Shown here one piece after another: positions 2,184-17,907 of a stretch of DNA of 64,000 bases. Source of the DNA: Microbispora corallina. GTDB taxonomy: Bacteria; Actinomycetota; Actinomycetes; Streptosporangiales; Streptosporangiaceae. The notes under the pieces are model-generated. The model was not told where the DNA came from. It did no database searches and worked only from the letters and a program-made list of their open reading frames with translations. The translations under genes and the position numbers were made by a program. Where the stretch lies: the NCBI RefSeq assembly GCF_016863035.1, contig NZ_BOOC01000023.1:1-64000 (forward strand), in the 5' to 3' direction. Positions within the stretch are counted from its first letter, which is position 1, and every line of letters starts with the position of its first letter.

Positions 2184-2969
2184 TCAGCGGCGGACGGGCG
2201 GCAGCGGGAGTATGCCGAGGCTGGCGTCGAGGCCTCCGTCCACGACCAGGGTCGTCCCGGTGACGTACGAGGCGGCGGGCGAGACGAGGAACCACACGGC
2301 CTCCGCCTGTTCGCGCGGCTCGGCGAACCGCTGGAGCGGCACCCGGCGCTCGATCTCCGCGGTGAGCACCGGGTCGCTCCGGACCCCGGCGTTGATCCGC
2401 GTCCAGGTCAGCCCGGGGGCCAGGGCGTTCACCCGGATTCCGTCCGGGGCGTGGTCGATGGCCGCCGCCCTGACCAGCTGGATCACGGCGCCCTTCGACG
2501 CGTTGTAGGCCCAGTTGCCGGGGTCGGCCCGCAGACCGGCGACCGAGGCGGTGACCACGATCGCGCCTCCGCCGGCGGCGCGCAGCGCGGGCGCGGCGGC
2601 GCGGATGCCGAGGACGGGACCGCGCAGGTTCACGGCGAGGATCCGGTCGGCGGCCTCGACGGCCCCGGGAGCCTCCCATGGCCGGGTGCCGCCGATGCCG
2701 GCGTTGAGCACGACCGAGTCGAGCCGGCCGAACTCCCCGACCGCCCGGGCGACCGCCTCCTGGTTGGTCTCCTCCAGCGACACGTCGCCGGCGAGCGTCA
2801 CCACGCCGTCGAGCCCGGCGAGCTCCTTGAGGGCGTGCTCGTCGTGGTCCACGGCGAGGACGGCGACGCCGCGCTCGGCGAACAACTCGGCGGTCGCCCG
2901 TCCGATGCCCGATCCGGCGCCGGTGACGACGGCGGCGCGGGGGGCGGCGGGCGAGGTGGGTGAGGTCAT
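2184..2969 (-). CDS. Short-chain dehydrogenase/reductase
   Basis: 261 residues. The ATG at 2969 overlaps the stop of the ABC ATPase gene (ATGA), so it is translationally coupled as the last transporter-linked gene. It carries TGAGSGIG, VLNAGIGG, YNASK and VVDGG, that is, the complete SDR cofactor and catalytic motif set. It is a close paralogue of the SDR at 925-1665 on the opposite strand, and the pair flanks the SnoaL-like gene. Substrate unknown. Confidence 0.85.
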   Translation of the reverse strand: MTSPTSPAAPRAAVVTGAGSGIGRATAELFAERGVAVLAVDHDEHALKELAGLDGVVTLAGDVSLEETNQEAVARAVGEFGRLDSVVLNAGIGGTRPWEAPGAVEAADRILAVNLRGPVLGIRAAAPALRAAGGGAIVVTASVAGLRADPGNWAYNASKGAVIQLVRAAAIDHAPDGIRVNALAPGLTWTRINAGVRSDPVLTAEIERRVPLQRFAEPREQAEAVWFLVSPAASYVTGTTLVVDGGLDASLGILPLPPVRR

Positions 2970-4819
2970 GTCGGGCCCTTCAGGTCCATGGCGGGTGCGG
3001 GGACGGCGGCCCGCCGGCCCGCGTGGAGACGCGGAACGGCGGCGAGCAGCGCGCGGGTGTAGGGGGCGCGGGGGGCGCCGAGGACCGCGGCGACGCCGCC
3101 GATCTCGACGAGGGACCCGTCCTTCATCACGGCGACCCGGTCGCACACCTGGCGGACCACTCCCACGTCGTGCGAGATGAACAGCAGCGACACCCCGGAC
3201 TCGCGGCGCAGACGGGCGAGCAGCGCGAGGATCTGCGCCTGGACCGTGACGTCGAGGGCCGACACCGGCTCGTCGCAGACGATCACCTCGGGCCCCGGGG
3301 CGAGCGCGCGGGCGATCGCCACCCGCTGCCGCTGACCGCCGGAGAGCCGGGCGGGCAGCCGGTCCAGGATCTCCGGGCCGAGCCCGACCTCGCCGAGCAG
3401 CGCCGCCACGCGTTCGCGCCGGCGGGCGCCGGTCAGGCCGCGGGGCAGCCCCTCGCCCACGACCCGCTCCACAGTGAACCGGGGGTCGAACGAGCTGAGC
3501 GGGTCCTGGTCGACGAGCTGGATGCGGGAGCGGCGGGGCCGGCGTTCCCGCTCGCGCACCCCGCTCCACGCCTCGCCGTCCAGCAGCACCTCGCCGGCGT
3601 CGGGGGCGATCTCGGCCAGCACGATCCTGGCCGTGGTGCTCTTTCCGGAGCCGGACTCGCCCACGAGCCCGAGCGCCTCCCCCGCGCGCAGCTCGAACGA
3701 CACGCCGTCCACGGCCCTCCGCCACGACCCGCCAGGCGAGCGGAACCGCTTGGCGATCCCGCGGACCGACACGACCGCGCGCTCGGACGCCACGGTGGAC
3801 GCTCGGACGGGCACGACGTCGGGCGCGACGTCGGGCACGGCCGGCCGGGCCGTCGGGCGTGGGGCGTCCTCACCGGGATGGAAGCAGCGGACCGTCCGTC
3901 CCGGCCCGTACGGCACGGGCGGCGGCAGCTCGCCGCGGCACCGGTCGTCGGCCAGCCCGCACCGGGACGCGTAAGGGCATCCCGACGGGGAGGCCGGCGC
4001 GGGACGGACCGCGCGCGGCTCCCGCACCGGGCCGTCCAGGTCCGGCACGGCGGCGAGCAGGTCGGCGGCGTACGGATGGGCGGGTGAGGAGAGGAGGTCC
4101 GCCGCGGGGCCCTCCTCCACCACGAGCCCTCCGTACATGATCGTCACCCGGTCGGCCATGCGGGCCACCACGGCCAGGTCGTGGCTGATGAGCAGCACCG
4201 CCGTGCCGTCCCGCCTCCTGGCGTCGAGCAGGTCGAGCACCTGGGCCTGAACGGTCACGTCGAGGGCCGTGGTCGGCTCGTCGGCGATCAGCAGCGACGG
4301 CCGGGCCGCGATGGCCGAGGCGATCAGGGCGCGTTGCCGGAGGCCGCCCGACAGCTCGTGGGGGTACTGCAGGAACCGGGTCTCCGGGTCGGGGACGCCC
4401 GCCTCGGCCAGCAGGGCGACGACCTGGTCGTCCAGGTCGTCCCCGGTCGCCAGGCCGTGCACCTCCAGCGGCTCGGCGACCTCGTCCCCCACCCTGCGGA
4501 GCGGGTCGAGGGAGGTCAGCGCGTCCTGCAGGACGTATCCGATCCGCCGGCCGCGCAGCCGCCGCCACTCGCGGGGCGTGAGCGCGCGCAGGTCGCGTCC
4601 CTCGAAGCTCAGCGTGTCGGCCCGCACCCGGGCGCCCGGGCCGGCCAGGCCGAGCAGCGTCCGTGCGGTGACGCTCTTGCCCGATCCCGACTCGCCGACG
4701 ACGGCCAGGCACTCCCCCGCATGCAGGGCGAAGCCGGCGTCGCGGACGGCCCGGACGACGCCGCGGCGGGTGGGGAACTCCACGGAGAGGCCGGCGACCT
4801 CGGCGAGCGGGCCGCTCAC
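2966..4819 (-). CDS. Dipeptide/nickel-type ABC transporter, fused double ATPase (DppD-DppF type)
   Basis: 617 residues from a GTG at 4819 that overlaps the upstream permease stop. Two complete nucleotide-binding domains lie in one chain: the first has Walker A GESGSGKS, signature LSGGLRQR and LLIADEPTTALD; the second has [17 protein letters not shown] and VIVCDEPVSALD. The first is followed by an oligopeptide-type HPY segment and a Cys-rich stretch (CPYASRC, then C, then C) typical of OppD/DppD. These ATPases power uptake of peptides, nickel chelates or similar ligands. The fusion replaces two separate genes and is common in actinomycetes. It is coupled to the downstream SDR. Confidence 0.92.
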   Translation of the reverse strand: MSGPLAEVAGLSVEFPTRRGVVRAVRDAGFALHAGECLAVVGESGSGKSVTARTLLGLAGPGARVRADTLSFEGRDLRALTPREWRRLRGRRIGYVLQDALTSLDPLRRVGDEVAEPLEVHGLATGDDLDDQVVALLAEAGVPDPETRFLQYPHELSGGLRQRALIASAIAARPSLLIADEPTTALDVTVQAQVLDLLDARRRDGTAVLLISHDLAVVARMADRVTIMYGGLVVEEGPAADLLSSPAHPYAADLLAAVPDLDGPVREPRAVRPAPASPSGCPYASRCGLADDRCRGELPPPVPYGPGRTVRCFHPGEDAPRPTARPAVPDVAPDVVPVRASTVASERAVVSVRGIAKRFRSPGGSWRRAVDGVSFELRAGEALGLVGESGSGKSTTARIVLAEIAPDAGEVLLDGEAWSGVRERERRPRRSRIQLVDQDPLSSFDPRFTVERVVGEGLPRGLTGARRRERVAALLGEVGLGPEILDRLPARLSGGQRQRVAIARALAPGPEVIVCDEPVSALDVTVQAQILALLARLRRESGVSLLFISHDVGVVRQVCDRVAVMKDGSLVEIGGVAAVLGAPRAPYTRALLAAVPRLHAGRRAAVPAPAMDLKGPT

Positions 4820-6684: not shown

Positions 6685-8394
6685 TCAGCCTCCCAGCCAC
6701 GCGCCGTAGAACACGGGGTAGGTCTGGGCGTCGAAGGCGATGCCGCGCACCTTGGCGGAGAAGGCGGTGAGCTGGACGGGCGTGTAGAGCGGCACGACGT
6801 ACGCCTGGCGGAGCACCTCCTGCTGGACCGACGAGTAGTCGCGTTCGGCGGTCGCCGGGTCGGAGGTCTCGGCCGCCTCCTCGACCCAGTGGTCGATCTG
6901 GGGCGACTTCACCAGGGCGACGTTGCCGCCGGCCTTGGCGTAGGTGTTGCCCGAGGCGAACGCGAACCGCAGCACGTCGGGCGTGGGCCGGGCGAAGCTG
7001 ACGTCGACGAGGTCGTAGGCGCCGCCGATCAGGTAGGTGCCGACGAACGCCCCGGTGTCCACAGTGGGCCGCTCGATCTTGATGCCGACGAGCTTGGCCT
7101 GGGCCTGGATGCCCTGGGCGAGGACGTCGCGCTGCTCCTTGTTGCCCTCCGCCCAGTAGGGCCAGACGAGAGTGAGCGTCTTGCCGTCCTTGACGCGGTA
7201 GCCGTTCTCTCCGGTCGTCCAGCCCGCCTCGTCGAGCAGCCGCCTGGCCTCCGCCGGGTCGTAGGAGGCGAACGCGCTCTCGGCGGAGGCGTCGTATGCG
7301 GCGGTCGTCCGGCTGAGCGGGTTGCGCGCGACCGGGAACAGCCCGAAATAGATGTTCTTCACGAGCTGGTCGACGTTTATCGACGCCGACAGCGCCCGCC
7401 GCACCCGCACGTCGCGCAGCGGCCCGCGGGTCTGGTTCAAATAGAGGTTGTAATTCAGCCCCGGCGTTTCCTGGGCGCTGAAGGAGAAATCCGCCGGCGA
7501 CTTGAGTTTCGCCGCGTTCACGGGCGGGACGCCGGCGATTCCCTGCGCCTGGCCGCTGGTGAGCGCGCCGTATCGCGTCGCGTCCTCGGAGACGAACTCG
7601 AAGACCAGGTCGTCCAGGTAGGGCGCGCCCTGATGGGAGGCTCCGGCCGGCGGCGAGGCGTACCGCGCGTTCTTCCTCAGCGTGACCCGCTTGTCCTTCT
7701 CCCACGAGACGAACGAGAACGGCCCGGTCCCCACCGGCCGGTAGTCGGCGACCGGCTTCGCCAGCGCCGCCGGGCTCTGGATGCCCAGGTAGGGCACCGA
7801 CAGCGCCTGGAGGAACGGGGTGAACGGCCGCGCGAGCGTCACCTCCACCACGTGGTCGTTCACGACCCGCGCCTCCTTGTACGGCGCGATCAGCGAGGCC
7901 GCGTACGCCGACTTGGTGGCCGGGTCGACGACGTGGTCGAGCGTGGCCTTGACGGCCTGGGCCGTGAACGGCGTGCCGTCGTGGAAGGTCACCCCCTGGC
8001 GCAGGGTGAAGGTGTAGGTCCGGCCGCCGTTCGAGACCTTCCATCCGGTGGCCAGCCAGGGGCCGAAGGTCGCGGGGCCGGTCTGGGCCACGAGCGAGTC
8101 GAAGACGTTGCGGTCGATCAGGCCCGTCACGGCGGTGGCCGCAACGGCTGGATCGAGCGACACCTGGGTGCCGGCGACGGCGTAGGTGAGCGAGCCGCCC
8201 GCGATGGGCCCGGCGCCCGCCTGGCGCGCCGGCCGGTCGTCGCCGCCTCGAGCCGAGGCGACCAGGACGGCGGCGACGACCGCGACCGCCACGACCGCCG
8301 CCGCCACGGCGACGGGGCGTCTGGAGCGCAGGCGGCGCCGCCGCCGGACGGGCCGCTCGCCGGCCCTGGTGGCTGTGTCGTCGCTCAGTGACAT
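6685..8394 (-). CDS. ABC transporter substrate-binding protein, family 5 (peptide/nickel/opine type)
   Basis: 569 residues from ATG 8394; an in-frame ATG at 8418 is less likely. The family 5 blocks GWKVSNGGRTYTFTLR, VTFHDGTPFTAQAV and the C-terminal LYTPVQLTAF region are present. The N-terminus has an Arg-rich stretch and then one hydrophobic segment (about residues 30-50), but no lipobox Cys, so the protein may stay as a membrane-anchored or Sec-cleaved form instead of a lipoprotein. It captures the ligand for the transporter below. First gene of the operon, with a leader of about 190 bases. Confidence 0.9.
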   Translation of the reverse strand: MSLSDDTATRAGERPVRRRRRLRSRRPVAVAAAVVAVAVVAAVLVASARGGDDRPARQAGAGPIAGGSLTYAVAGTQVSLDPAVAATAVTGLIDRNVFDSLVAQTGPATFGPWLATGWKVSNGGRTYTFTLRQGVTFHDGTPFTAQAVKATLDHVVDPATKSAYAASLIAPYKEARVVNDHVVEVTLARPFTPFLQALSVPYLGIQSPAALAKPVADYRPVGTGPFSFVSWEKDKRVTLRKNARYASPPAGASHQGAPYLDDLVFEFVSEDATRYGALTSGQAQGIAGVPPVNAAKLKSPADFSFSAQETPGLNYNLYLNQTRGPLRDVRVRRALSASINVDQLVKNIYFGLFPVARNPLSRTTAAYDASAESAFASYDPAEARRLLDEAGWTTGENGYRVKDGKTLTLVWPYWAEGNKEQRDVLAQGIQAQAKLVGIKIERPTVDTGAFVGTYLIGGAYDLVDVSFARPTPDVLRFAFASGNTYAKAGGNVALVKSPQIDHWVEEAAETSDPATAERDYSSVQQEVLRQAYVVPLYTPVQLTAFSAKVRGIAFDAQTYPVFYGAWLGG

Positions 8395-9595: not shown

Positions 9596-9625
9596 ATGAT
9601 AGCTAAAAACCTACATTACCTACAT
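9596..9625 (-). promoter_or_regulatory. Putative lysR promoter with direct repeats
   Basis: This AT-rich patch holds the -10-like TATCAT (minus strand, 9596-9601) placed so that transcription would begin at the lysR ATG. It also holds two copies of ACCTACAT (9609-9616 and 9618-9625, plus-strand reading) with a 9-base period over the -35 position. The repeats overlap the last codons of the esterase gene. Confidence 0.35.
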
Positions 9626-10366
9626 AGAATTAGGGCTGTGATCCTCGGTCCACCAGCGGACCGCGGCGGTCGCGAGGTCCGGGGGGACCTCGTGGCCGCC
9701 GGGGAACTCCTCGTAGGCGACCGGGTAGTCGCCGTCCCGCAGGCTCTTGGCGATGCGCCTGCCGCAGGCGACCGGGAGCACCCGGTCGTCCGCGCCGTGG
9801 GAGACGAACAGCCGCGGGCGGCCGTGCCGGAGCATGGGCGCCATGAAGCCCGGGGAGAAGGCGAGCACGGCGCGGAACAGGTCGCCGTTGGCGACCCCGA
9901 GCGACAGGGCGTAAGAGGCGCCGTCGGAGAATCCGGCGACCGCCACGCCGTCCAGGTCGACGGCGGCCCGGGCGAACACCTCCTCCAGCGCCCCGTCCAG
10001 CCGCGCGACGTCCGGCCCGTAGCCGCCGAGGATGACGTCCCAGGTCGTGGAGACCGACTTCGGCGCGAGCAGGAGGAAGCCGAGATCGTCCGCCTGGGCG
10101 GACAGCAGCCCGAGCGCCTGGTCGGCAGAGCCGCCCGCGCCGTGCAGCACGACGGCGATCCGGTGCGGGCCCGGCCCGGCGGACGGCGGCACGTAGAGCA
10201 GCGCCTGCCCGTCCAGCCGGTGGATGCCCGCCTCCGGCCCGCGGAGGGGCGGATGCGGTCCTCCGCCCGGGGACGTCGGAAGCGCGACGGGACGGGCGGT
10301 GAGACGGCCGTGCCGTACGCCCTCCTCCGGCTGCGGATGGGCCGCGGCCCCTCGCGTCACCGTCAT
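9620..10366 (-). CDS. Alpha/beta-hydrolase esterase (PHB depolymerase/phospholipase-like)
   Basis: 248 residues from ATG 10366, which has a GGGAGG ribosome site; upstream in-frame codons lack one. The alpha/beta-hydrolase triad can be read: oxyanion strand VVLHGAGGS, nucleophile GFSDGAS, acid in HGADDRVLP, and His in GGHEVPP. The layout fits small carboxylesterases and poly-hydroxyalkanoate depolymerase-like enzymes without a signal peptide. Substrate unknown. It is 130 bases downstream of cutC on the same strand. Confidence 0.8.
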   Translation of the reverse strand: MTVTRGAAAHPQPEEGVRHGRLTARPVALPTSPGGGPHPPLRGPEAGIHRLDGQALLYVPPSAGPGPHRIAVVLHGAGGSADQALGLLSAQADDLGFLLLAPKSVSTTWDVILGGYGPDVARLDGALEEVFARAAVDLDGVAVAGFSDGASYALSLGVANGDLFRAVLAFSPGFMAPMLRHGRPRLFVSHGADDRVLPVACGRRIAKSLRDGDYPVAYEEFPGGHEVPPDLATAAVRWWTEDHSPNSM

Positions 10367-10496: not shown

Positions 10497-11243
10497 TCAG
10501 GCCCTGGCGGCGGCGATGACCTCCGACACCAGCGCGCCCGAGGTGACGCGGCGCACGAACTCCGACTGCCGCAGCTCGCCCCCCATGTACGGGTACGGGT
10601 TGCGGTGGACGACCGGGCTCGGCTCGTCGACGAGGGCGGCGAAGTGGATCTCTTTGGCCCCTGTCGCCTCGACGACCCGGCCGGCGTTCCTGGGGGTGAT
10701 GCCGCCGCCGGGCATGACGACGAGACGGTCGCCGGCCCGCTCGACCAGCGAGGCGATCAGCGGCGCCCCCTCCAGCGCCGTGCTGTCCTGGCCGGAGGTG
10801 AGCACCCGGTCGACGCCGAGCGCGACCAGCGTCTCCAGCGCGGCGAAGGGGTCGGCGGCCATGTCGAAGGCCCGGTGGAAGGTGACCGACAGGCCCTCGG
10901 CCGCGCCGATGAGCCGCTTGGCCACCTCCTCGTCCACCTCCCCCTGGGGGGTGAGCGCCCCGATGACGACTCCCTGGGCACCCGCCTCGCGCACGGCCGC
11001 GACGTCCCGCTCCATGGCCTCGATCTCGTAGCGGTCGAAGACGAAGTCGCCGCCGCGCGGCCGGATGATGACGTGCACCCGGATCGAGGAGACCGCCGCC
11101 AGCGTGGCCTCGACCGTGCCGAGGGTCGGCGTGAGGCCGCCCTCGAACAGCGCGGCGCACAGCTCCACCCGCTGCGCCCCGGCCCGCTCGGCCGCCACGG
11201 CGCCGGCCGTGCTGTCGATGCAGATCTCGTAGGTCAGACTCAT
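10497..11243 (-). CDS. cutC: CutC-family TIM-barrel protein
   Basis: 248 residues, with CutC blocks EICIDSTAGAVAAERAGAQRVELC, RPRGGDF, TFHRAFDM, LTSGQ and MPGGGI. CutC was named for copper homeostasis. In E. coli the copper phenotype was later assigned to the MicL small RNA inside cutC, so the enzyme's real job is open. Here it starts one base after the asparaginase stop and closes an amino-acid uptake operon, which suggests a catabolic rather than a copper role. Confidence 0.88.
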   Translation of the reverse strand: MSLTYEICIDSTAGAVAAERAGAQRVELCAALFEGGLTPTLGTVEATLAAVSSIRVHVIIRPRGGDFVFDRYEIEAMERDVAAVREAGAQGVVIGALTPQGEVDEEVAKRLIGAAEGLSVTFHRAFDMAADPFAALETLVALGVDRVLTSGQDSTALEGAPLIASLVERAGDRLVVMPGGGITPRNAGRVVEATGAKEIHFAALVDEPSPVVHRNPYPYMGGELRQSEFVRRVTSGALVSEVIAAARA

Positions 11244-11244
11244 C

Positions 11245-12195
11245 TCATTCCCCCAAAGCGTGGATCTCGCCGACCGGGACGCCCCCGCCCAGCACCGGTA
11301 CCGTCGTGAACTCCGCGGCCCCCGTCACGTCGCCGCCGGCCGCGCGGAGCGCGGCGAGCGCGACGGCCGTCGTCGCCCGCGGGCTGCCGTCGATCACCTT
11401 CACCGCGGCCGCGTGCCCCGAGGCCAGCGCGACCACGAGCACCCCCTCGGCGCCACCCTTCGCCACGGCTCCCGGCAGCGCCCGCATGAGCCCCGTGTTC
11501 ACGTGGCCGGTGCCGCCGACGTACTCGGGGTGCGCCCGCATCGCGTCGGCCACGGCCAGCGGGGCCGTCCCGGGGGCCGCCAGCACGAGGGCCTGGACGG
11601 CCCGGGCCAGCCCGGCCAGGGACAGCCCGAACAGCGGCGCGCCGCAGCCGTCGACGGCGACGTGGGCGGCCTTCTCCCCTGAAAGGTCCTCGACGACCGA
11701 CCGGACCCGCTGTTGCACGGGGTGGCCGGGGTCGAGGTACGACTCCGTGGGCAGGCCGGACGCGACCGCCGCGGCCAGCATGGCGGCGTGCTTGCCCGAG
11801 CAGTTCATCCGATCGCACGAGGGCCCGAGGCCGGCGCGGATCAGGGCGTGCCTGGCCGGCTCGTCCTCCGGCCAGTCGGGCGGGCAGCCGAGCGCCTCGG
11901 TGGTGAGGCCCGCGCCGGCGAGCATCTCGGCCACCAGCCGGACGTGGCGGTCCTCCCCCGTGTGGCTCCCGGCCGCTATGGCCAGGCTGCGGCCCTCCAG
12001 AGGGGCGCCGGCGAGCAGGCAGGCGAGCGCCTGGAACGGCTTGGCCGACGACCGGGGCAGCACCGGCGCGGCGACCGCGCCGCGGGCCACGGCCGTGCGG
12101 CCGTCCGGCGTCAGCGCGACCGCGCTGCCGTAGTGGACGCTCTCCACGAAGCCGGACCGGACGACTTCGGCGAGCGGGACGAGATCAGCCGGCAC
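11245..12195 (-). CDS. Type II (asparaginase II family) asparaginase
   Basis: 316 residues from a GTG at 12195 that overlaps the end of the permease gene by 11 bases. Family blocks are RSSAKPFQALA, GSHTGEDRHV, MNCSGKHAAM, DGCGAPLFG and the C-terminal GGGVPVGEIHALGE. The family is assigned to asparagine hydrolysis (aspartate plus ammonia), although the range of substrates is not well known. No signal peptide, so cytoplasmic. It is placed between the transporter and cutC, so it likely acts on the imported compound. Confidence 0.88.
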   Translation of the reverse strand: MPADLVPLAEVVRSGFVESVHYGSAVALTPDGRTAVARGAVAAPVLPRSSAKPFQALACLLAGAPLEGRSLAIAAGSHTGEDRHVRLVAEMLAGAGLTTEALGCPPDWPEDEPARHALIRAGLGPSCDRMNCSGKHAAMLAAAVASGLPTESYLDPGHPVQQRVRSVVEDLSGEKAAHVAVDGCGAPLFGLSLAGLARAVQALVLAAPGTAPLAVADAMRAHPEYVGGTGHVNTGLMRALPGAVAKGGAEGVLVVALASGHAAAVKVIDGSPRATTAVALAALRAAGGDVTGAAEFTTVPVLGGGVPVGEIHALGE

Positions 12196-13036
12196 CGGCG
12201 GTCCTCCTGCGGGGCTGGCGCGCCTCCAGCGCGCGGGCTAGCTTCGACAGCGACGCGTTGACCACCAGGTAGATCAGCGCGACGACGATGTAGGTCTGGA
12301 TGAGCAGGCCGTTGTAGTTGGCCAGCACCTTGCCGCTGTACAGCAGCTCCGCGTAGCTGACGACGAAGCCGAGCGAGGTGTCCTTGAGCAGCCCGACCGA
12401 CTGGCTGACGATCGACGGCAGCACGCGGCGCAGGGCCTGCGGCAGCACGACCAGGCGCATCGACTGCCCGTGGGACAGGCCGAGCGCGAGGGCCGCCTCC
12501 CCCTGGCCGCGCTCGACCGACAGCACGCCGGCCCGGAAGATCTCGGCGAACGCCGCCGCGTTGGACACCGCCAGCGGCACCACGAGCTTCCAGAACAGCG
12601 GCAGGTCGACGCCGTACCGCGGCAGCGCGAACAGCACGAGGTAGACCAGCAGCAGCGCGGGGATCGTCCGCACCACCTCGACGTACGCACCGGCGGGCAG
12701 GCGCGCCCAGCGGCGGTGCGACAGCCGTCCGAGCGCGAGCGCGAGCCCGGCCGCCATGGCGAGCGCGGCCGACACCACGGCGGCGAGCGCCGTCGACCAG
12801 AGCCCGCCGAGCAGGTAGCGCCACATGGGCCAGGTCGCGTACGGCTGCCAGCGGTCGGCGGCGAGCTGGCCGTTCGCGGCGAACTGACGGACGGCGAGCG
12901 CCACCAGGGCGAGCGCGACCAGTGCCCCCACGACGGTCGCCACCCGGATCCTGCGGCGCCCGCGCGGCCCCGGCTCGTCGAACAGGAGCGTGCTCGACGG
13001 GGCGCTCGCCCGGCGGCGCCCGGGCGCGGCGGTCAC
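12185..13036 (-). CDS. Polar amino-acid ABC permease (GluD type)
   Basis: 283 residues, GTG at 13036 overlapping the stop of the preceding permease. An N-terminal basic region is followed by a hydrophobic segment and the HisM/GlnP-type permease core with the loop GQGEAALALGLSHGQSMRLVVLPQALRRVLPSI. It pairs with the protein at 13033-13677 to form the channel for glutamate, glutamine or a related amino acid. Confidence 0.9.
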   Translation of the reverse strand: MTAAPGRRRASAPSSTLLFDEPGPRGRRRIRVATVVGALVALALVALAVRQFAANGQLAADRWQPYATWPMWRYLLGGLWSTALAAVVSAALAMAAGLALALGRLSHRRWARLPAGAYVEVVRTIPALLLVYLVLFALPRYGVDLPLFWKLVVPLAVSNAAAFAEIFRAGVLSVERGQGEAALALGLSHGQSMRLVVLPQALRRVLPSIVSQSVGLLKDTSLGFVVSYAELLYSGKVLANYNGLLIQTYIVVALIYLVVNASLSKLARALEARQPRRRTAGAG

Positions 13037-13677
13037 CGGGCCACCGCCAGCCGCCGTTCGAGCCGCCCGGTGACGAACCCCGCCACGGCCGCGACGGCCG
13101 CGTACGCGAGGCCGGCGCCCACGAAGATCGGGATCGGCTGGGCCTCCAGCAGGTTGACCCGGTTGGCCGCGGCCGTGAGGTCCACGACGCCGACGGCGGC
13201 GACGAGCGAGGTGTTCATGGTGAGCGCGATGAAGATGTTCCCGAGGGGCTGGACGACGGTCCGCAGCGCCTGCGGCAGCACCACGTGGCGCAGCGACTGG
13301 CCGAACGTCAGCCCGAGCGCCCGAGCGGCCTCGCCCTGGCCCGCCGAGATCGCGTTGACGCCCGAGCGCAGGGCCTCGGCGATGTAGGCGCCCTCGTACA
13401 GGGCGATGACCACCATGGACGTGACGAGCAGGCCGGCCTCGATCCCGATCTCCGGCAGGCCGAAGACGGCGAGCACGAGCAGCACGAGCAGCGGCAGGTT
13501 CTGGAAGGCCTCGACGTACGCCGTGCCGGCCGCGCGCAGGACGGGCACCGGGCCGACCCGCATCGCGGTGATCACGACTCCGACGACCGCGGCGCCGGCG
13601 AATGACGCCGCGGTCAGCTCGAGCGTCACGACGAGCCCCTGCCAGAACTCCGGCAGGTGATCCAGGATCGCGGACAT
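13033..13677 (-). CDS. Polar amino-acid ABC permease (GluC type)
   Basis: 214 residues, ATG at 13677 sharing one base with the stop of the binding protein. It carries the typical EAA loop GQGEAARALGLTFGQSLRHVVLPQALR and about five transmembrane segments. Partner of the GluD-type permease. The tight overlaps on both sides show a single operon. Confidence 0.9.
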   Translation of the reverse strand: MSAILDHLPEFWQGLVVTLELTAASFAGAAVVGVVITAMRVGPVPVLRAAGTAYVEAFQNLPLLVLLVLAVFGLPEIGIEAGLLVTSMVVIALYEGAYIAEALRSGVNAISAGQGEAARALGLTFGQSLRHVVLPQALRTVVQPLGNIFIALTMNTSLVAAVGVVDLTAAANRVNLLEAQPIPIFVGAGLAYAAVAAVAGFVTGRLERRLAVAR

Positions 13678-14606
13678 CAGGAGCCCGGGACCGACCCGAT
13701 CGCCGGCGGCGTCGGGGCCGCGCCCTGGACGACCGTGCCGAGGGAGTTCTTCCAGATCCGCTGCCACAGGCCCTGGCCCTGGATCTTGGTGAGCCAGTCG
13801 TTGACGAACTTCTTGAACTGGTCGTCCCCGTGCTTCAGGCCGATGCCGTACGGGTCGGTGGTGAAGGGGCTGCCCACCACCTGGAGCGACGGGTCCTTCT
13901 TCGCGTCGGCGACGAGCAGCGTCTCGTCCTGGACGTACGCGACGCCGCGGTCCTGCTTGAGCGCCTGCACGCACTCGGGGTCGCCGCCGAAGGTGACGAT
14001 CTTCGCCTGCGGCGCGAGCTTCTGGATGGCCGGGATCGCGGGGGTGTTGGCCCCGGCGATCACGGTCTTGCCGTTGAGGTCCGCCGGCGAGGTGATCCCC
14101 GTCGTGCCCTTCTTGACCGCGATGCTCAGGCCCGAGGAGTAGTACGGCCCGGCGAAGGCGACCTGCTGCGCCCGTTCGGGGGTGATCGTGTAGGTCTGGA
14201 AGACGACGTCGACCGTGCCGTTGCTCAGCAGGGCCTCCCGGGTCTCGGACGCCGAGTTGACGATCTTCACCTTCGGCTGCCCGATGATGTACTTCGCCAG
14301 GGCCTTGCCGAGGTCGGCGTCGAAGCCCTCCACCTCGCCGGTCGACGGGTTCTGCTGGGACAGCAGCGGCGCGTCGAGCGAGCCGCCGACGATGAGCTCG
14401 CCGCGCTGCTTGATCTTCTCCATCGTCGAGCCCGGGAGGATGTCGGCGGCCGCGGCGACCGGCGCCGCGGAGAGAAGGTCGCCGCCGCCCTTGGCCGCGC
14501 CCGGCACGGCGGAGTCCGCCGAGTCCGTCCCGCCACAGGCAGAAAGGCCCACCAGGCCCGCCATCGACACGGCGGCGACGGCGGCCACCCGCTTCATGGA
14601 CACCAT
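13677..14606 (-). CDS. Amino-acid ABC substrate-binding lipoprotein (GluB type)
   Basis: About 309 residues. Starts at 14618, 14606 and 14597 are all in frame; 14606 is best placed relative to the AAAGG upstream. A signal peptide ends in the lipobox LSAC, so it is a membrane-anchored lipoprotein. Family 3 binding-protein blocks follow (GELIVGGSLDAP, GFDADLGKALAKY, then TDPYGIGLKHGD). It captures the amino acid or derivative outside the cell for the GluACD-type transporter. Confidence 0.9.
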   Translation of the reverse strand: MVSMKRVAAVAAVSMAGLVGLSACGGTDSADSAVPGAAKGGGDLLSAAPVAAAADILPGSTMEKIKQRGELIVGGSLDAPLLSQQNPSTGEVEGFDADLGKALAKYIIGQPKVKIVNSASETREALLSNGTVDVVFQTYTITPERAQQVAFAGPYYSSGLSIAVKKGTTGITSPADLNGKTVIAGANTPAIPAIQKLAPQAKIVTFGGDPECVQALKQDRGVAYVQDETLLVADAKKDPSLQVVGSPFTTDPYGIGLKHGDDQFKKFVNDWLTKIQGQGLWQRIWKNSLGTVVQGAAPTPPAIGSVPGS

Positions 14607-14627
14607 CGTGCCCACCATCCTTTGCGA

Positions 14628-15356
14628 TCAGTGCGTGAGTACCTTGGCCAGGAAGTCCCTGGCCCGATCGGTCGTGGGAGCGTCGAAGAAGGCGTTCGGC
14701 TCCCCGGTCTCGACGATCCGGCCGCCGTCCATGAACACCACACGGTCGGCCGCCCTGCGGGCGAACCCCATCTCGTGGGTGACGACCACCATGGTCATGC
14801 CGTCCGCGGCGAGCCGGACCATCACGTCGAGGACCTCGCCGACCATCTCGGGGTCGAGCGCCGAGGTCGGCTCGTCGAACAGCATCACCTTGGGCCGCAT
14901 GGCCAGCGCCCGGGCGATGGCGGCGCGCTGCTGCTGGCCCCCCGACAGGCGGGCCGGCAGCTTGCCGGCCTGCTCCGCGATTCCCACGCGGGCCAGCAGC
15001 TCGCGGGCGTCCCGCTCCGCCTCGGCGCGGCTCACGCCGCGCACCTTCATCGGCGCGAGCACGACGTTCTCCAGCACGGTCTTGTGCTGGAACAGGTTGA
15101 AGGACTGGAACACCATGCCCACGTCGGCGCGAAGGCGGGCGAGCGCGCGCCCCTCCGCCGGAACCGGCACGCCGTCGACGAGGATCTCGCCGGCGTCCGC
15201 CGTCTCCAGCCGGTTGAGGCAGCGGCACAGCGTGGACTTGCCCGAGCCGGACGGCCCGATCACCACCACCACCTCGCCCCGCGCCACGTCGAGATCGACG
15301 TCGTGCAGCACGTGGTGATCACCGAACCATTTGTTCAGTCCTCGTACCTGAATCAT
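14628..15356 (-). CDS. Amino-acid ABC transporter ATPase (GluA type)
   Basis: 242 residues from ATG 15356, which has AAGGA 8 bases upstream; an in-frame ATG at 15362 is too close to it. Complete ATPase motifs: Walker [11 protein letters not shown]-loop VFQSFNLF, signature LSGGQQQR, Walker [13 protein letters not shown], switch His in VVTHEMGF. First gene of the six-gene operon running to cutC, divergent from the ROK regulator. Confidence 0.93.
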
Positions 15357-15366
15357 CGCCATCTTC

Positions 15367-15441
15367 CTTCGAAATCGAAGATATGGCGGACCGTAATGGA
15401 TGATTCTGGCCCAAGTCAACGCACTGGCGCAGAAAGTCAAC
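15367..15441. promoter_or_regulatory. Divergent promoter/operator region, gluA-type operon and ROK gene
   Basis: On the minus strand TTGACT (15414-15419) and TACGGT (15390-15395) with an 18-base spacer form a likely promoter for the transporter operon. AAGTCAAC occurs twice (15413-15420 and 15434-15441) with a 21-base period, two helical turns, and covers the -35. The perfect inverted repeat CTTCGA-AA-TCGAAG (15367-15380) lies just before the gluA ribosome site. These are candidate sites for the divergently encoded ROK regulator. Confidence 0.5.
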
Positions 15442-15460
15442 TCGTGGTATTCCTCTCCTC

Positions 15461-16603
15461 ATGTCAGGCAAAGAGAGGTTGCCGGTGCGGGGGGCCCAGG
15501 GCGACCTCCTGCGCCTGGTCGCCGCCGGCCAGGCCGAGTCGCGGGCCGAGCTCGCCCGCATGTCGGGCCTGGCCGCGTCGAGCGTCTCCCTCCGGGTCGA
15601 GGAGCTCATCGGCACCGGGCTCCTCGTGGAGGAGGGGGCCGGCACCTCCCGCGGCGGGCGGCGCCCCCGCCGGCTGCGGCTCAGCCCCAGCGCGGGCGTG
15701 CTCGCGGTGGCCGACCTGGGGGCGCACCACGCCCGGCTCGGCCTGCTCGACCTGAGCGGCACCCCGCTCGTCGTCGAGGAGCGGCCCTGCGACATCGCGC
15801 TCGGGCCCGAGGCCACGATGGACTGGATCGCCGCGTCGTTCGAGGACCTGCTGCTGCGGCACGGGCCGCCCGGGGTTCCCCTGCGCGGCGTGGGCACCGG
15901 CATCCCCGGGCCCGTCGACCCCGCGACCGGCCGCGTCGTCGCGCCCTCCCGGATGCCGGGGTGGAACAACTTCCCGGTCGCCGAGCGGCTCGGCTCGCAC
16001 TTCGACCTGCCGGTCCTCGTCGAGAACGACGCCAACCTGATGGCGGCCGGCGAGGCGCGCTCCTGGCCGGGCCGCGAGACGCTGATGGTGCTCAAGGCCG
16101 GCAGCGGCATCGGCTGCGGGGTGATCGTGAACGGCGCCCTGCACCGCGGCCGCGGCGCGGCGGGCGACATCAGCCACGTCCGGGTCCGCAGCGACTCGTC
16201 CGTGACCTGCTCCTGCGGCCACCTCGACTGCCTGGAGGCGTACGCCAGCGGCGCCGCCCTGATGGCCGTCCTGGGCGAGCAGGGCATCGCGGTCGAGCGG
16301 CCCGGGGACATCGTCGCGCTGGTGGAGGACGGCGTGCCCGAGGCCACGGCGCTGGTCAGGAACGCGGGCCGGCTGATCGGCGAGGTCCTCACCGTGCTGG
16401 TGAACTTCCTGAACCCGGACGCCATCGTGGTCGGCGGCGGCCTGTCCTCGGCCGAGCCGCTGATCTCGGCGATCCGGGCCGCCGTCTACGAGCGCTGCCT
16501 GCCGCTCGCGACCCGGGACCTGGAGATCGCCGCCAGCCGCTCCGGGCCCGACGCGGCCCTGCTCGGCGCCGGGGCCCTGCTGCTCGACGCCGTGCTCGCC
16601 TGA
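15461..16603 (+). CDS. ROK-family transcriptional regulator
   Basis: 380 residues. The N-terminal winged HTH (about residues 10-60: GDLLRLVAAGQAESRAELARMSGLAASSVSLRVEEL) is followed by a ROK sugar-kinase fold with VLVENDANLMAAGE, GSGIGCG and the zinc-binding CSCGHLDCLEAY motif. ROK repressors of this build usually sense sugars or amino sugars. It is divergent from an amino-acid transporter operon, an unusual pairing. No ribosome site is visible before ATG 15461, so the mRNA may be leaderless. Confidence 0.9.
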   Translation: MSGKERLPVRGAQGDLLRLVAAGQAESRAELARMSGLAASSVSLRVEELIGTGLLVEEGAGTSRGGRRPRRLRLSPSAGVLAVADLGAHHARLGLLDLSGTPLVVEERPCDIALGPEATMDWIAASFEDLLLRHGPPGVPLRGVGTGIPGPVDPATGRVVAPSRMPGWNNFPVAERLGSHFDLPVLVENDANLMAAGEARSWPGRETLMVLKAGSGIGCGVIVNGALHRGRGAAGDISHVRVRSDSSVTCSCGHLDCLEAYASGAALMAVLGEQGIAVERPGDIVALVEDGVPEATALVRNAGRLIGEVLTVLVNFLNPDAIVVGGGLSSAEPLISAIRAAVYERCLPLATRDLEIAASRSGPDAALLGAGALLLDAVLA

Positions 16604-17296: not shown

Positions 17297-17370
17297 ACGC
17301 CGGAGCGGCAGGGCTGCGTCGGCAGGAAATTGGTTCAGGCCCGGAAGGCCGAACCTCTACCGTGTACGCC

Positions 17371-17907
17371 GTGACGACTCAGGTGATCGTGCTCAACGGC
17401 GGATCGAGCGCCGGCAAGTCCGAGATCGTCCGGCACCTGCAGGCTGTCCTGCCGCAGCCGTGGCTCGCCTTCGGGGTCGACTCGCTCATCGAGGCGATGC
17501 CCCGGGCCATGCAGGCATCGGATGCGGGGATCGAGTTCGCCCCCGACGGCGGAGTGAACGTCGGGCCGGAGTTCATGGCGCTGCAGTCGGCGTGGATGGA
17601 GGGCCTCGCCGCGATGGCCCGCGCCGGGGCGCGGGTCGTCATCGACGACGTCTTCCTCGGTGGCGTGGCGACCCAGCAGCGGTGGCGGCGCGTTCTCGGC
17701 GGGCTGGACGTCCTGTGGGTCGGCGTCAGGTGTGACAGCGCGGTCGCCGCCGAGCGGGAGAGGGCCAGGGGAGACCGGATCCCGGGAATGGCCGTGACGC
17801 AGGCGGCGGTGGTCCACGAAGGCGTGGTCTACGACCTGGAAGTGGACACCACGCACACCGAGTCCTCGAAGTGCGCGGAGACCGTCGCCGCTCACGTCAC
17901 GTCGTAG
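17371..17907 (+). CDS. cpt: Chloramphenicol 3-O-phosphotransferase-like kinase
   Basis: 178 residues from GTG 17371, exactly the length I recall for the Streptomyces venezuelae enzyme; a GTG at 17362 is also in frame. P-loop GGSSAGKS at residues 10-17, catalytic Asp37 in FGVD, then IDDVFLGG and [13 protein letters not shown], all very close to Cpt as I remember it. Cpt inactivates chloramphenicol by phosphorylating the primary hydroxyl. No chloramphenicol biosynthesis gene lies in the window, so it is either self-standing resistance or a kinase with another target. Converges with glpD. Confidence 0.85.

Follow-up and report, generated by a model that had tools for sequence, protein, structure and literature searches.

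This analysis concerns a divergent gene cluster of Microbispora corallina, located in a window of 64,000 nucleotides (contig NZ_BOOC01000023.1, positions 1 to 64,000; by window we mean this whole stretch). Six minus-strand genes, spanning 15362 down to 10497, encode an importer of the ATP-binding cassette (ABC) type, an amidase of the asparaginase II family and CutC, and a gene for a ROK regulator lies opposite on the plus strand. With slightly more than even confidence, we read this operon as a dedicated, locally regulated system for the uptake and cleavage of a glycosyl-asparagine. The most likely compound is N4-(beta-N-acetylglucosaminyl)-L-asparagine (GlcNAc-Asn), the stub which remains after the degradation of N-glycoproteins. 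The gene context in relatives favours a glycosyl-asparagine over plain asparagine. If our reading is true, actinomycetes possess a dedicated route for this glycoprotein stub via PF06089, a family not known for the reaction. The function of CutC, a protein conserved up to humans whose copper role is disputed, would then become a directly testable biochemical question.

Conservation and amino-sugar neighbours of the operon

We collected 80 loci by a single scan of genome contigs with the asparaginase and scored block membership by tblastn with the window proteins; the sample is biased to close relatives, and contig ends truncate several of its loci. The full block, that is, the ROK gene opposite to ATPase, binding protein, permease 1, permease 2, asparaginase and CutC, is found in the same order in 30 of the 80 loci (Actinomadura 12, Microbispora 5, Streptosporangium 4, Planotetraspora 3, Modestobacter 2, and one each from Klenkia, Georgenia, Micromonospora and an unclassified member of the Pseudonocardiaceae). 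Another 20 loci (Nonomuraea 18, Actinophytocola 2) have the ROK gene, binding protein, both permeases and asparaginase without ATPase and CutC, and seven (Lentzea 6, Umezawaea 1) consist of binding protein, permeases and asparaginase. Two Planotetraspora loci miss an intact CutC, three loci are partial with CutC, and 18, mostly from Streptomyces, contain nothing of the block. The first-pass annotation of the window had read these genes as one catabolic system, a view which a lack of linkage in other genomes would have undermined. The linkage is kept in eight named genera and in the unclassified Pseudonocardiaceae, and the block order is conserved beyond chance. A plasmid of Embleya, a further actinomycete, likewise carries the set.

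A reverse search starting from CutC covered 121 genomes of the order, a set which probably overlaps with the genomes of the 80 loci. CutC is present in 65 of the 121 genomes and its scores split into two groups. Seventeen of the 25 full-length genes (at least 213 bits, the window's own copy excluded) adjoin the asparaginase; none of the four low-scoring copies fetched does so. The window genome has one extra CutC (108 bits) and one extra PF06089 gene. In the two Actinophytocola genomes, whose operon is without CutC, the gene is located elsewhere and not beside amino-sugar genes.

Several relatives carry amino-sugar genes at the end of the operon. At all four loci examined from Klenkia, Modestobacter and Georgenia (L059, L060, L062 and L065), CutC is directly followed by a ROK protein with the kinase motif DxGGT, and at three of them NagB lies next to this kinase. 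The NagB proteins of L059 and L060 score above the TIGR00502 cut-off, and that of L062 is 90% identical to the one of L059. L059 and L062 further encode a GntR-UTRA regulator and NagA, the latter below its cut-off, and in L059 the asparaginase and CutC genes overlap by 4 bp. In Nonomuraea pusilla (L034), ROK, asparaginase and CutC occur without the ABC genes and are accompanied by a sugar ABC importer and an alpha-mannosidase of glycoside hydrolase family 38 (GH38). The families attached in Klenkia and Modestobacter are those of the NagK-NagA-NagB modules for N-acetylglucosamine (GlcNAc); they are missing from the window operon, which has the ROK regulator alone and no ROK kinase.

Outside the actinomycetes we searched plasmids for CutC. 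Matches were found in 67 of 72,556 records, of which 27 were read. The choice was not random: the match list already named ROK for one record and a glycosylasparaginase for another before selection, and the enterobacterial plasmids (15 of 60 listed) were represented by one. The placement test used 20 whole records (17 at one per genus), with L106 to L111 set aside. Of these 20 records, 11 have ROK, NagA or NagB no more than 8 kb from CutC, where 1.60 would be expected (P ~1e-8); with each genus counted once, the figures are 9 of 17 against 1.39 expected. By a generous count, which includes the weak cases L089 and L103, at least one amino-sugar marker is present in the fetched stretch of 20 of the 26 non-actinomycete plasmid loci.

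The composition of these loci is varied. Three plasmids come from Hymenobacter. In each, cutC shares 4 bp with a gene whose annotation is N4-(beta-N-acetylglucosaminyl)-L-asparaginase; GH92 is present in all three, ROK is nearby in two and nagB in one. The Hymenobacter PF01112 proteins contain the motif NHDTI. PF01112 occurs in five of the 20 placement-test records and adjoins CutC in the three from Hymenobacter only. A Novosphingobium locus (L109) combines a PF01112 gene with GH92, CutC, SIS and NagA, a Sinorhizobium plasmid has the string amidase-ROK-CutC with nagA, SIS, GlcNAc kinase and murQ alongside, and a Kozakia plasmid has ROK, CutC, GH20, nagA and nagB. Amino-sugar genes also lie by CutC in Paracoccus (two), Qingshengfaniella, Sphingomonas, Loktanella, Peteryoungia and others.

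The most instructive example is the alphaproteobacterium Hyphomicrobiales UR115 (L111). Here the genes for two permeases and an ATPase precede those for a PF01112 asparaginase and a family-3 binding protein; a divergent LacI-like gene comes next, and then a ROK kinase and CutC. To judge from these genes, the asparaginase would be a non-homologous replacement, another family with the same partners. This protein is without the NHDTI motif and its best NCBIfam match, below the cut-off, is beta-aspartyl-peptidase; it could be either a glycosylasparaginase or an isoaspartyl peptidase. The earlier claim that the imported compound has an amino-acid and an amino-sugar part is thus partly supported by gene context, namely by the ROK kinase, NagB and NagA which end the Klenkia and Modestobacter operons and by the PF01112 asparaginases beside CutC in other phyla.

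Two further arrangements were noticed. On a Phyllobacterium plasmid (L124, 7001-8745) a PF01112-like asparaginase lies between the ATPase and the binding protein of an amino-acid ABC importer, with a divergent LacI and no CutC in the stretch seen; this looks like the same use without CutC. A string of GH20, M81 metallopeptidase, major facilitator superfamily (MFS) transporter and CutC recurs in Rhizobiales and Rhodobacterales (L097, L100, L107), and the M81 family is also near CutC in L088 and L113.

Properties of the encoded proteins

The putative glycosylasparaginase (11245-12195, minus strand) matches PF06089 only, with 346.1 bits (cut-off 25). A domain of the N-terminal nucleophile (Ntn) hydrolase family PF01112 was not found in it, so the enzyme may work like glycosylasparaginase (AGA) and yet would not be a member of that family. 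Lys52, Cys132, Lys135, Asp182 and Cys184, to which we assign catalytic and zinc-site roles by assumption, are kept in more than 97% of both the operon and the housekeeping clades. A Streptomyces-type clade of 14 members (support 0.999) does not include the operon enzymes, which differ from it for example by His231/Asn233 in place of Arg/Asp; an attempt to place these differences in the pocket failed. With the rhizobial asparaginase II enzymes they share PF06089 and the Lys, Cys, Cys and His motifs. The rhizobial proteins are described as L-asparaginases, whereas the operon enzymes are encoded together with an importer and a ROK protein.

The importer has the properties of the polar amino-acid type. 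Both permeases (permease 1, 13033-13677; permease 2, 12185-13036; both minus strand, PF00528) are of the HEQRo 3TM polar amino-acid type and score above the cut-off of the polar amino-acid subfamily TIGR01726. The ATPase (14628-15362, minus strand, PF00005) is of the matching type, its best NCBIfam match being GlnQ, below the cut-off. The family-3 solute-binding protein (13677-14606, minus strand, PF00497) carries the residues which hold an amino-acid head group: Arg145 and Asp227 are found in 60 of 60 sequences. In gene order, binding-protein family and head-group Arg and Asp the importer resembles those of the GluABCD and GlnH type. It differs at position 76, which is Ser in the window, Ser in 54 and Ala in 6 of the 60 sequences, and again Ser in L111, but Lys in the Glu-bound structure 5eyf and Asp in 6h1u. 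The loci without an ATPase gene include L010-L033 (Nonomuraea) and L041-L057 (Lentzea).

CutC (10497-11243, minus strand), the last gene of the operon, matches PF03932 with 240.3 bits (cut-off 23.3). Glu6, Arg25, Glu27, Cys29, Arg61, Asp127 and His200 are invariant in 59 of 59 sequences, Cys8 is kept in 57 and His123 in 58. In the structural model (pLDDT 90) the conserved residues are predicted at the ends of the barrel strands. The closest folds are the CutC proteins of Shigella, human and Bacillus (Z 34.4 to 3iwp; 30-34 to 1twd/1x7i, 3iwp and 4r9x), which have the same invariant residues; these are named for copper homeostasis, whereas the operon protein is set amid amino-sugar catabolism. 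Among the rows listed, CutC itself is followed by TIM-barrel enzymes of the sugar-phosphate and related kinds (MJ1099 with Z 21.1, 3-hexulose-6-phosphate synthase 19.9, deoxyribose-phosphate aldolases, TrpF 17.9, HisA 17.3). As these scores are too close together, the fold does not name a reaction. We offer as a doubtful guess that CutC is an amino-sugar enzyme active at neutral pH, with 1-amino-GlcNAc or a related glycosylamine as the substrate which it opens and hydrolyses. Glu6, Cys8 and Asp127 are located at strands 1 and 5 of the barrel; in TrpF and HisA, enzymes which open glycosylamines, the acid/base pair sits at the ends of these two strands. The loss of CutC with the rest of the operon kept would fit a step which also runs slowly unaided. 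A second group of eight full-length CutC copies of the housekeeping type (L162-L169), without asparaginase, has by eye glycyl-tRNA-synthetase-like and zinc-uptake-like neighbours; both cysteines are missing in five of the seven readable ones.

The ROK regulator (15461-16603, plus strand, PF00480) has lost the kinase ATP motif and kept the sugar-site and zinc motifs, as is typical for a ROK repressor. DxGGT is absent in 53 of 54 sequences, the sugar-site motifs VENDAN or IENDAN and GAAGDISH are present in 49 and 50 of 54, respectively, and an N-terminal winged helix was read by eye, with no helix-turn-helix match from Pfam. The palindrome CTTCGAAATCGAAG at 15367-15380 is a candidate operator of this regulator. 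It is the only exact CTTCGAwwTCGAAG site in the window genome of 8.36 Mb. A single copy of the palindrome CTTCGAnnTCGAAG is present in the window genome and at each of 37 of the 80 loci, and a shorter core, TTCGAnnTCGAA, lies at the corresponding place in Planotetraspora and in L055; neither was found in the Klenkia, Modestobacter, Georgenia, Micromonospora and Actinophytocola loci of this set.

Proposed pathway and competing explanations

We suggest the following steps. Uptake would be by the ABC importer, whose family-3 protein would recognise the free alpha-amino and alpha-carboxyl groups of the compound. The PF06089 amidase would then cut the side-chain amide, which would give aspartate and 1-amino-GlcNAc. 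CutC would act on the amino-sugar half, in the simplest guess by converting the glycosylamine to GlcNAc and ammonia; this step is the least certain. GlcNAc would be phosphorylated and enter the NagA/NagB route, the genes of which lie beside the operon in some relatives, with nagA elsewhere in the window genome. Finally, the divergent ROK protein would repress the operon via its one palindrome until a sugar-containing ligand relieves the repression.

A precedent is the alf-2 cluster of Lactobacillus casei for fucosyl-GlcNAc-Asn, in which mutants and assays established the glycosylasparaginase AsnA2 and the ROK GlcNAc kinase SugK (PMC6960285). There, a cytoplasmic amidase acts on GlcNAc-Asn, as we propose here, a ROK sugar kinase follows, and the glycoamino acid serves as inducer of an operon under a local repressor (PMC6960285). 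The differences are considerable. The alf-2 cluster has an Ntn-type AsnA2, the MFS permease AlfH, the fucosidase AlfC and a GntR regulator (PMC6960285), whereas the window operon has a PF06089 amidase, an amino-acid ABC importer, a ROK regulator and CutC, with neither an Ntn glycosylasparaginase and MFS permease nor a ROK GlcNAc kinase. The published description of the cluster names no CutC and leaves 1-amino-GlcNAc to enzyme-free decay; its authors state that the compound is not metabolisable and decays non-enzymatically at acidic pH (PMC6960285). By analogy, this decay would leave a gap for an enzyme in a neutral cytoplasm and would make the loss of such an enzyme tolerable. We infer that the window operon may work like alf-2.

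Several observations weigh against GlcNAc-Asn as the substrate. The nearest relatives of the binding protein with a solved structure have Glu or Asp as their ligand, and the GlnH of Mycobacterium tuberculosis, with Asp at position 76, was solved with Asp and with Glu. Thus Lys at this position is not needed for binding Asp or Glu, and position 76 is only a weak argument for a pocket suited to an uncharged side chain on a free amino-acid head group. The catalytic-type residues of the asparaginase are identical in the operon and the housekeeping (Streptomyces-type) clades, and the solved PF06089 members (8cly and 7os3 series, presumably the rhizobial enzymes ReAIV and ReAV) are named asparaginases. 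The ROK kinases at the four loci with amino-sugar genes score far below the GlcNAc kinase equivalog cut-offs. The only PF01182 hit in the window genome lies in an apparent pentose-phosphate cluster and is therefore probably a 6-phosphogluconolactonase, so that a NagB of that type seems absent. The ATPase gene is missing in 27 of the 80 loci despite a binding protein and both permeases; unless these loci recruit an ATPase from elsewhere, their proteins would not function as an importer. Transporter and asparaginase occur without an intact adjacent CutC in 29 of the 80 loci (one cut by a contig end), and in L004 the cutC right behind the asparaginase is internally deleted. A scavenging system for plain Asn, Gln, Asp or Glu, with a GluABCD-like importer and an asparaginase, CutC as an accessory or copper protein and ROK reporting the carbon status, could draw on the solved ligands, the shared catalytic-type residues, the importer order ATPase-binding protein-permease-permease and the Nonomuraea, Lentzea and two Planotetraspora loci among those without an intact adjacent CutC. 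Against it stand the Klenkia and Modestobacter operons with their attached ROK kinase, NagB and NagA, the L111 locus, where a PF01112 asparaginase goes together with a family-3 importer, a ROK kinase and CutC, and the dedicated one-site palindrome; we consider it unlikely.

The remaining objections concern CutC. Six of the 26 non-actinomycete plasmid loci are without an amino-sugar marker (Persicobacter L091, Cetobacterium L096, Parabacteroides L101, Enterococcus L102, Salmonella L104, Entomospira L105). In a phylum-wide sample, in which 12 of 149 genomes have CutC and 12 loci were fetched, the second copy of the window genome included, comparison with reference proteins found ROK, NagA or NagB within 8 kb of CutC in none of the 12; a MurQ-like match is near CutC in two Streptomyces-like loci. 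Eight of the 25 full-length CutC genes in the order lie elsewhere in a housekeeping setting without amino-sugar genes. It is conceivable that CutC is a copper-homeostasis gene which hitch-hikes, retained by chance among genes with no shared pathway. The name of CutC derives from copper phenotypes, both Cys8 and Cys29 are kept in the operon type, and CutC was lost in several lineages which retain the operon. We regard this as very improbable in view of the independent link of CutC to ROK, NagA and NagB on the plasmids of other phyla, the overlap of 4 bp which cutC has with a PF01112 gene in Bacteroidota and, in L059, with the asparaginase gene, and the invariance of Glu6, Arg25, Glu27, Arg61, Asp127 and His200; moreover, both cysteines are missing in three divergent copies which were aligned. 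The substrate might also be another amino-sugar conjugate with an amide or amine link. Candidates are fragments of muropeptides, other glycosyl amides and Amadori compounds; for one of the latter, fructose-asparagine, Salmonella has a known pathway with an asparaginase. In favour of such a substrate, murQ occurs at the CutC loci L087, L090, L106 and L108 and the amidase-ROK-CutC string at L090 and L108, with no PF01112 asparaginase nearby. The PF01112 asparaginases beside CutC, the GH92 and GH38 mannosidases by some copies and the NagA/NagB ending fit GlcNAc-Asn better, and in our view such a conjugate is rather improbable.

A universal tie of CutC to amino sugars was dropped after the phylum-wide and order-level counterexamples. 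These limit the amino-sugar claim to some CutC lineages; outside them CutC may perform another function. The first-pass suggestion of a role beyond copper is accordingly backed by genomic context in only a part of the family. No copper gene was seen among the conserved neighbours of the operon, where copper genes were not specifically searched for. Among the open-access papers listed by our searches, we saw none which connects CutC with NagA/NagB, glycosylasparaginase or the present operon, as judged for NagA/NagB from titles and abstract openings. A passage in PMC8565777 places CutC under copper homeostasis by automatic annotation.

Gene layout and neighbouring genes

All seven genes named by the first-pass annotation were found at its positions by profile matches. 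Its description as tightly overlapping holds for three junctions, with overlaps of 1, 4 and 11 bp; a gap of 1 bp separates asparaginase and CutC, and one of 21 bp (9 bp with a start at 14618) separates ATPase and binding protein. Promoter-like elements of the operon were read by eye at 15390-15419 on the minus strand (-35 TTGACT at 15414-15419, -10 region at about 15390-15398) and look conserved among relatives in an alignment likewise read by eye.

Directly behind CutC lies an esterase/PHB-depolymerase-like gene (9620-10366, minus strand). Such a gene also follows CutC in five Microbispora loci (L009, L014, L015, L020, L036) and not in the other genera, which points to a local extension of the operon. 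A family-5 (peptide) binding protein (6685-8394, minus strand) and an oligopeptide ATPase (2966-4819) are close by, so the operon sits beside a likely peptide importer. On the other side, a chloramphenicol phosphotransferase-like gene (17362-17907, plus strand; PF07931, 227 bits) has a HAD hydrolase gene as one neighbour and a glycerol-3-phosphate-oxidase-like gene as the other.

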